A program made the position numbers and the translations under genes. The notes under the pieces were generated by a model. That model ran no database searches, was not told where the DNA came from, and saw only the letters and a program-made list of their open reading frames with translations. Below are positions 7,589-59,500 of a DNA stretch of 64,000 nucleotides, piece by piece (position 1 is the first letter of the stretch; every line of letters starts with the position of its first letter). Source of the DNA: Candidatus Obscuribacterales bacterium (GTDB taxonomy: Bacteria; Cyanobacteriota; Vampirovibrionia; Obscuribacterales; Obscuribacteraceae); NCBI GenBank assembly GCA_020050685.1, contig JAGVKG010000013.1, positions 62,001 to 126,000 of the forward strand, read 5' to 3'.

Positions 7589-8836
7589 ATGACAAACACA
7601 ATGAGTATGCATGAACAAGCTCGCTTGCGAAGAATCAAATCCGAATTTCAAAAACAATTCGGACATTTACCACAATATATTGTGCGTGCGCCAGGACGAG
7701 TAAATTTAATTGGCGAGCACACCGATTACAATCGGGGATTTGTTCTGCCTGCAGCAATTGATCGTGACTTTATTATTGCTGCGTCAGTTGCCAGTGGCGA
7801 GAAGATAACTGTCTGGTCGAACAATTACGAAGAAAAAGACTCTTTTACGCTGACCAATATCCAAGCAAGCCGCGAATATCATTGGAGCAATTACCTGCGG
7901 GGCGTTGTCTCAACCTGGCAGGCACAACATAAATCCGCAATTGCCTTTAACGCTGTGACTGATGGAAATATTCCCCAAGGTGCCGGGCTCAGCTCTTCTG
8001 CCGCTTACGAAGTAGCGGTTGCCACTCTTCTTGATCAAATGTGCAACACCGCCCTCAGCGCCAAAGAAATTGCATTGCTTGCCCAGAAATCCGAAAATGA
8101 CTTTGTTGGTGTTCAGTGCGGCATCATGGATCAGTTTGTTTCTCTTAGCGGAAAGCATGGCGCGGCTGTCTTATTAGACTGCAAGAATTTAACGACCGAG
8201 ACTATTCCCCTTGATCTAGAACGTTATGATCTCGCCTTGGTAATTACAAATTCCGGAATCAGTCGTAACCTGACAGCCAGTGATTACAATCAACGCAAAG
8301 AAGAATGTAATACGGGACTTGAGTTACTGATCAAAATCATCAAGCGCGAAAACATCAAAAGTCTCAGAGATATTCCCTCTGCCGAGTTCATCAAATATCA
8401 ACACTTTCTACCCTTGGCGCTGCGCAGACGTTGCCTGCATGTTGTCGAAGAAAATGATCGGGTACTTAAAGCAGCCCAAGCACTTGTGGCCAACGACGTC
8501 ACCAAATTTGGTGAACTAATGAATGAATCCCATGCTTCGCTTAGAGACAACTTTGAGGTGAGCTTGAAAGAAATTGACCTGTTGGTATCACGGACTCAAG
8601 CTCATCCAGGCGTGCTTGGGAGCCGCTTGACCGGAGCCGGATTCGGCGGCTGCACCGTCTCCCTCATGAATTCCTCAAGCGTAGGAAGCTATATAAATCG
8701 GGTGCTGCCACAGTATGCAGAAGCTACAGGTATTACCGCGCAAGTGTACATTGCCAAAGTCAGCGACGGAGCCTCAATAATAGAACGCCCAATGGCTGCG
8801 ACTGGCGGAGAGTTGGCCCAAGTACCAGCTTTGTAA
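7589..8836 (+). CDS. galK: Galactokinase
   Basis: GHMP-family kinase that phosphorylates galactose to galactose-1-phosphate (EC 2.7.1.6), supplying the substrate for GalT next door. The galactokinase signature is GRVNLIGEHTDYNRGFVLP (about residues 35-53). The ATP loop is GAGLSSSAAYEVA (about 132-144), the catalytic Asp lies in CGIMDQFVS (about 173-181), and motif 3 is GSRLTGAGFGGCTV near residue 350. At 415 residues it is slightly longer than average. Three in-frame ATGs lie in the first six codons, so the exact start is uncertain by a few residues. Confidence 0.95.
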   Translation: MTNTMSMHEQARLRRIKSEFQKQFGHLPQYIVRAPGRVNLIGEHTDYNRGFVLPAAIDRDFIIAASVASGEKITVWSNNYEEKDSFTLTNIQASREYHWSNYLRGVVSTWQAQHKSAIAFNAVTDGNIPQGAGLSSSAAYEVAVATLLDQMCNTALSAKEIALLAQKSENDFVGVQCGIMDQFVSLSGKHGAAVLLDCKNLTTETIPLDLERYDLALVITNSGISRNLTASDYNQRKEECNTGLELLIKIIKRENIKSLRDIPSAEFIKYQHFLPLALRRRCLHVVEENDRVLKAAQALVANDVTKFGELMNESHASLRDNFEVSLKEIDLLVSRTQAHPGVLGSRLTGAGFGGCTVSLMNSSSVGSYINRVLPQYAEATGITAQVYIAKVSDGASIIERPMAATGGELAQVPAL

Positions 8837-24336: not shown

Positions 24337-24347
24337 TACTTGATACA

Positions 24348-24436
24348 GATCGTTGGGCACGGCGGAGGCCAGCGAACCTGGTCAGAGGGGAAACCCAGCA
24401 GCCATAAGTTGTTACCTTCGGGTGTGTCCAGCGGTC
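24348..24436 (+). ncRNA. ffs: Signal recognition particle RNA, small bacterial type (4.5S)
   Basis: RNA scaffold for Ffh in co-translational targeting. The 5' end GATCGTTGGGCAC (24348-24360) pairs along its full 13 bases with GTGTCCAGCGGTC (24424-24436), allowing G.U pairs. The apical domain has the conserved asymmetric loops: GTCAG (24381-24385), GGG-GAAA-CCC (24387-24396), AGCAGCC (24397-24403). GAAA replaces the commoner GGAA tetraloop but is still GNRA. Length is about 90 nt, as in 4.5S RNA. The T-rich TTTTAATTTT at 24441-24450 probably terminates it. Confidence 0.92.
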
Positions 24437-24498
24437 TGCATTTTAATTTTATTGAGAGCCTTCACAATTTTTGCCTTGAAAGTTTGATTTAAAAAGCC

Positions 24499-31366: not shown

Positions 31367-31385
31367 CAAGCCTGTAGGCATAGCT

Positions 31386-31590
31386 GTCTGGTCTCCTTGG
31401 CCTAAGTAATTTTCTTCTTTAATCAAAGTCATAATATATGATGACTTTTAATCTACTGCAAAAAAGTTCAATTGTCCCAAAAGCAGCATCCGTTGTGCTT
31501 TTCAAAGGGGCGCCAAGAACCATGATAAGTCATCAAATATTATGACCAAACCTAGGCAGCGAAAGCACTGGGCTTGTCCTCTTATTTAGC
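31386..31590. repeat. Long-inverted-repeat element, copy A
   Basis: GTCATAATATATGATGACTT (31428-31447) and the complement of 31527-31546 agree at 19 of 20 positions, so the arms can form a near-perfect 20-bp stem around about 79 nt. Each arm is itself quasi-palindromic (GTCAT...ATGAC). An inner hairpin AAAAGCA/TGCTTTT lies in the core. The flanks GTCTGGT and CCAAACCTAGGCAG recur in copy B at 59336-59500. It fills the gap between two convergent genes and could be a MITE-like element or a structured RNA. Confidence 0.65.
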
Positions 31591-59209: not shown

Positions 59210-59335
59210 TCGACAATAAAAGATCCAGCCGAAGGCGGATAGATCAAAAGATACTTCAAGCGGATGGCAAAGCGCCCGGTAGTCAAGCGCACTTTAAGTC
59301 TAGCGCCGCTCGCGCAATTTCTAGGCTGCCTGACC

Positions 59336-59500
59336 GTCTGGTTTTTCTCCTTTAAGCCAAGTCATCAAATTCAATGACTTTCGATTCATGGCGAAAAAGT
59401 TGAGCCGCCTGAAAAACACACCGGGGCTTGCGTCTCGGCTGTGGCAAAAAAATCTGCTTCGTCACGAAATATGATGACCAAACATAGGCAGGAAAACCGA
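59336..59500. repeat. Long-inverted-repeat element, copy B
   Basis: GTCATCAAATTCAATGAC (59361-59378) agrees with the complement of 59461-59478 at 14 of 18 positions, enclosing 82 nt; both ends (GTCATCA, TGAC) are identical. Conserved with copy A are GTCTGGT, GCGAAAAAGTT, and CCAAACATAGGCAG. It lies in the 653-bp gene-free stretch 59210-59862. The rest of that stretch holds a GCACCAC/GTGGTGC palindrome near 59781, a T-run at 59812 and nothing else I can name. Confidence 0.6.

Follow-up and report, generated by a model that had tools for sequence, protein, structure and literature searches.

Paired 18-bp near-palindromes in a diverged intergenic repeat family of a Candidatus Obscuribacterales genome

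The window studied here, a stretch of 64,000 nt (G000:C4:62001-126000, where G000 is the 4.2-Mb, 70-contig source genome and C numbers denote its contigs), contains two arms at positions 31428-31447 and 31527-31546. As the initial annotation stated, 19 of the 20 positions of one arm are complementary to the other arm, and 79 nt lie between them. Do they close a structured RNA, for which a 6S-like molecule had been suggested, or do they belong to a MITE-like DNA element, the other initial suggestion? In our best explanation, held with moderate confidence, they are parts of an old, dispersed, MITE-like non-autonomous intergenic DNA repeat, and its palindromes are predicted sites for a dimeric protein. 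The repeat is not a demonstrated MITE, REPIN or 6S RNA.

Sequence comparison and searches with a sequence-only profile identified seven full copies of the element in G000 (A, B, C8, C10, C13, C20 and C41), each approximately 180 bp long and non-coding. Copies A and B lie in the window, B being the homologue of A initially noted at 59.4 kb, and five further full copies were found elsewhere in the genome. The profile scores of the seven copies are 94–114 bits. Profile R1 matches copy A at G000:C4:93406-93559 (window 31406-31559, 98.9 bits) and copy B at G000:C4:121338-121491 (window 59338-59491, 96.6 bits). Overall pairwise identity among the copies is 51–75%, with no pair closer than 75%. A weak profile match at G000:C53:65648-65749 (18 bits, E 0.01) is similar to the left half of C20 and has no right palindrome; it may be a relic, namely, a decayed left half-copy. 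The 12-bit match at window 8372-8518 was rejected as a copy, the DNA there being apparently coding. The features are listed in Table 1.

Table 1. Positions of the repeat copies and their parts. Coordinates without a contig name refer to the window.
Feature	Coordinates	Strand	Sequence or basis
Copy A, entire conserved region (from the left block through palindrome 1, the core and palindrome 2 to the right block)	31385..31562	+	Profile match and conserved extent −43 to +16 around the palindromes
Left conserved block, copy A	31385..31427	+	No gaps in any of the seven copies; consensus CTTGRCC-N6-WTTTTCTCCCTTARTCAA; by column conservation, with palindrome 1 as the anchor
Palindrome 1, copy A	31428..31445	+	GTCATAATATATGATGAC
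Core, copy A (83 nt, poorly conserved)	31446..31528	+	Mean pairwise core identity 51%
Palindrome 2, copy A	31529..31546	+	GTCATCAAATATTATGAC
Right conserved block, copy A	31547..31562	+	CAAACCTAGGCAGCGA; family consensus MAAACMTAGGC
Copy B, whole conserved extent	59318..59494	+	Profile R1 match and column conservation
Palindrome 1, copy B	59361..59378	+	GTCATCAAATTCAATGAC
Palindrome 2, copy B	59461..59478	+	GTCACGAAATATGATGAC
Copy C8	C8:13313-13468	+	Sequence and profile search
Copy C10	C10:34579-34729	−	Sequence and profile search
Copy C13	C13:8476-8626	−	Sequence and profile search
Copy C20	C20:61756-61905	+	Sequence and profile search
Copy C41	C41:15475-15627	−	Sequence and profile search
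Direct repeats flanking copy C10	1384-1401 and 1681-1698 of C10 segment L002

Every copy begins with an asymmetric left block, continues with an 18-bp near-palindrome and a weakly conserved core of about 80 nt, repeats the palindrome and ends with a right block. The element as a whole is asymmetric, with 43 bp to the left of the palindromes vs 16 bp to the right. The left block reaches approximately position −43 relative to palindrome 1 and includes TTGRCC at −31 to −26, TTT at −18 to −16 and T at −9, and the right block (AAAC.TAGGC) runs to about +16 past palindrome 2. The start-to-start distance of the two palindromes equals 96 or 100–101 bp across copies. Three conserved blocks had been proposed initially. 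CCAAAC.TAGG is genuine (strict in A, B, C10 and C13, looser in the rest), but AAAAAGTT is present in three of the seven copies only, and GTCTGGT is not a homologous block, since its offset from the first palindrome is −42 in A vs −25 in B.

Each arm is a copy of one 18-bp near-palindrome with the consensus GTCATCAAATWTGATGAC, with 10 of the 18 positions the same in all 14 sites. Conservation is concentrated in the palindromes, where the mean pairwise identity reaches 84% and 90%, vs 51% in the core. By column, identity reaches 0.87 within the palindromes vs 0.55 elsewhere, and none of 20,000 permutations gave a value as high. The string GTCATNNNATNTNATGAC, with at most one mismatch, has 31 matches in the genome (both strands counted), nearly all within the seven copies, vs 1 match for the reversed control, which excludes a chance origin of the palindrome copies. 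With three mismatches allowed, the consensus is found in only a handful of extra places, and the two inspected (one at window 8498, the other in an aminotransferase-like gene of C53) are in coding DNA; on these grounds a single-site regulon was rejected.

The case for RNA depended on the initial observation that the arms differ between copies and agree within each. We counted Watson-Crick complementarity for all 5040 permutations of partner arms over the seven copies. True partners are complementary at 108 of 126 positions vs a permuted mean of 107.9 (p=0.57), so that agreement is not copy-specific. The match between own partners is good in A and amounts to 14/18 in B, 13/18 in C20, 15/18 in C8 and C10, and 16/18 in C41. 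Pair counting over the seven copies gave 85.7% of cells paired vs 85.5% in shuffled data (295 of 500 shuffles as high), and the closing stem contains one compensated cell in 126, the same as in shuffles. The flanks outside and inside the arms have no significant excess of pairing. Since each arm is itself a palindrome, e.g. AAAGTCATAATA/TATGATGACTTT, any left arm will look complementary to a right one. A hairpin inside each palindrome was rejected as well, since deviations from symmetry within single palindromes are not compensated (p=0.45). Arm pairing that is not copy-specific, together with uncompensated deviations, fits DNA sites rather than pairing strands. Hence we infer that the palindromes are double-stranded DNA sites of a dimeric DNA-binding protein.

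Folding gives the other argument for structured small RNAs or mRNA 3' elements (6S-like or other) closed by a long arm stem. Copies A and C13 fold well below shuffles (z −5.3 and −7.3, respectively), and five of the seven copies lie 20–140 nt downstream of a co-oriented gene. However, C41 has z of −0.5, the core of copy A has z of −1.36 on the plus strand and +0.70 on the minus strand, and across copies the cores fold on average no better than shuffles (mean z near zero); the strong fold of copy A is thus a product of its two palindromes. RNAalifold applied to the copies yielded arm and outer-end pairs only, with a covariation term of −0.04 kcal/mol, i.e. no covariation, and Rfam, 6S models included, gave nothing at the seven copies either at the gathering threshold or at E≤5. 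On the Rfam search we rejected 6S or another RNA family, and on RNAalifold, the pair counts and the partner permutation a covarying RNA stem. The copies also have no consistent promoter. TTGRCC at −31 resembles a −35 box of a sigma-70 promoter, but no −10 box is present at the correct distance, and a search of copy A gave only one unrelated site; the scan of copy A for intrinsic terminators gave none. The RNA reading is very unlikely. A small peptide encoded in the core was also considered and, from reading the copies by eye, rejected: in several copies short frames start from an ATG in palindrome 1 but stop early in B and C13, C20 does not have this ATG, and the frame across the conserved AAAAGC block varies between copies.

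All seven full copies are situated in gaps between predicted genes at unrelated loci; in the window, ORFs of at least 150 aa cover about 83% of the sequence. Copy A lies between an unknown gene and the convergent murF, and copy B follows the gene of a small HTH-like protein. C8 lies 46 nt after prfB, C10 137 nt after trmD, and C13 49 nt after the gene of a small membrane protein. Copy C41 has an exbD-like gene on one side and a divergent gene on the other, and C20 is between ribH and the gene of an XRE-type HTH_3 regulator (C20:61284-61754, minus strand), whose predicted start codon is inside the left block of C20. This regulator has only remote matches (~26–42% identity) in 24 other genomes of the family. 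The names prfB, trmD, ribH and exbD come from reading the protein sequences, and the Mur ligase and HTH_3 assignments from Pfam. Other elements were seen near the copies or in the window. On both sides of copy C10, 297 bp apart, lies a short direct repeat of another kind: TGAGAGRTCCTTCGTCGC and, after it, a stretch of CTCCTC-GGATGACA. This direct repeat looks like another dispersed repeat family. A GC-rich tandem array with a 27-bp unit CGCGGCTCACGTAGTCACAGCGCATAC in 3.4 copies directly adjoins copy C13 (1373-1488 of C13 segment L004). The bacterial small SRP RNA (RF00169, 54 bits) is encoded at window 24347-24440, plus strand.

The suggestion of a MITE-like element stands in kind: the repeat is dispersed, intergenic, non-coding, multi-copy, about 180 bp long and has inverted palindromic arms. 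In its favor, seven full copies occupy unrelated intergenic sites, and the palindrome is nearly exclusive to the copies, with two per copy. Prokaryotic MITEs are shorter than 500 bp, and their direct repeats fade with age; in QMITE1 of C. burnetii the copies are less than 75% identical, and the terminal inverted repeats are better preserved (PMC10969869). Against it, marks that would make the MITE assignment conclusive were not recovered. No consistent direct repeat indicative of target-site duplication was seen at any boundary offset tried for the seven copies. The palindromes are inverted-compatible, and the outer 24 nt beyond them match as a terminal inverted repeat only marginally, without reaching significance (p=0.08). 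No autonomous partner combining these ends with a transposase was found in G000 or in the other collections searched.

Subterminal palindromes could also be hairpins for a Y1 transposase (TnpA or RAYT), which would make the repeat an IS200/IS605-derived or REPIN-like single-strand DNA element. The two palindromes at a distance of 96–101 bp, with a spacer of lower conservation between them, are reminiscent of REPINs, where the spacings of REP sequences are 71 and 110 bp (PMC3116915), and relatives of IS200/IS605 have subterminal hairpins and make no target-site duplication (see also PMC6006769), which would suit the copies. But Y1_Tnp (PF01797) has no match in G000, which is 98.7% complete, while five of 14 control genomes have one. 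The tetranucleotide 5' of the palindromes, i.e. at the foot of the supposed hairpin, is not constant (CAAA, CCAA, GCAA, CAAG, CGAA, CAGA), the stem deviations are uncompensated, and there are seven copies here vs hundreds for REPINs. We consider this origin quite unlikely.

Alternatively, the host itself may maintain the copies as paired sites: a putative dedicated dimeric protein would bind two palindromes ~100 bp apart, serving gene regulation or chromosome organisation, with selection acting on each locus. This is a possible but rather improbable reading. It is in agreement with the conservation of the palindromes while the remainder drifted to ~50% identity, and with the retention of both palindromes in every full copy, none being single at promoters. 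The C20 element, reaching the start of the XRE-type HTH_3 gene, would fit autoregulation of that gene. On the other hand, the two spacing classes (96 vs 100–101 bp) are half a helical turn apart, the neighbors (prfB, trmD, murF, ribH, exbD-like, unknowns) have no common function, convergent genes lie downstream of A and C20, and the homology in the left block, core and right block exceeds the need of two operators. We regard as unlikely the stronger form of this idea, that the seven copies are lineage-confined stations, selected per locus, with predicted dimeric-protein sites of a new chromosome-organising or co-regulating system and not dead mobile repeats.

The repeat seems confined to its lineage. 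None of 381 other genomes of the class contained the palindrome pair, nor did scans of GTDB r220 and IMG/VR reveal it; the lone GTDB match (L092, Peptococcaceae) is about what chance predicts for that pattern. The profile had no credible match in 60 relatives, the weak matches in G024 and G059 having no palindromes, and the consensus query gave nothing in phage and plasmid collections. Absence outside G000 is as expected for a lineage-specific repeat. The genomes searched included none of the same genus, and confinement to one genome could mean confinement to one genus.

For the MITE-like repeat, which we prefer, the basis is what was observed, namely, the copies, their anatomy and the concentration of conservation in the palindromes. 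Dispersal is seen from the copies, and mobility is what we infer. A trans-acting transposase, no longer detectable, would have recognised the paired sites and spread the copies in this lineage. The palindrome-binding protein would be probably this lost transposase or else a host factor. The copies are now old and include no near-identical pair, and any current effect would thus be exerted through protein binding beside neighboring genes. The palindromes are too well preserved for uniform neutral decay, which implies that the copies diverged as masters or that the sites are under selection now. Either an earlier divergence of the source elements took place with selection acting on their ends, as is reported for some MITEs (PMC10969869), or the host uses the sites at present. 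If present selection acts, the sites are a lead to a lineage-specific DNA-binding protein. The case also exposes a trap, as inverted arms resembling an RNA closing stem may in fact be one DNA palindrome present twice; the partner-permutation test tells the two apart.

The repeat family is apparently undescribed; no paper was retrieved when the full-text literature was searched for its palindrome core. It shares with 6S RNA a long closed stem predicted in copy A and a length of ~180 nt, but differs in having seven diverged loci, no Rfam family match at the copies, no covariation and no conserved core fold. With IS200/IS605-derived palindrome-associated elements it has in common subterminal palindromes at both ends and no target-site duplication, whereas it has no Y1 transposase, constant flanking target tetranucleotide or compensated hairpin stems. 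REPINs and REP doublets (PMC3116915) are similar in having two palindromic, inverted-compatible motifs (96–101 bp apart here), a less conserved spacer and an intergenic location; unlike them, the present repeat has a near-perfect 18-bp palindrome, seven copies instead of hundreds, no singlets seen, no RAYT/Y1 transposase and no GTAG-type guide tetranucleotide. Prokaryotic MITEs and small intergenic repeats (ERIC, Correia, RUP, QMITE; PMC10969869) differ from it in target-site duplication, in a clear terminal inverted repeat, which here is at most marginal outside the internal 18-bp palindromes, and in the partner transposon, not found here, where the copies number only seven and are all strongly diverged. 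With these MITE-type repeats it shares a length below 500 bp, a non-coding, intergenic, multi-copy and lineage-specific character, and palindromic arms that are better conserved than the core.
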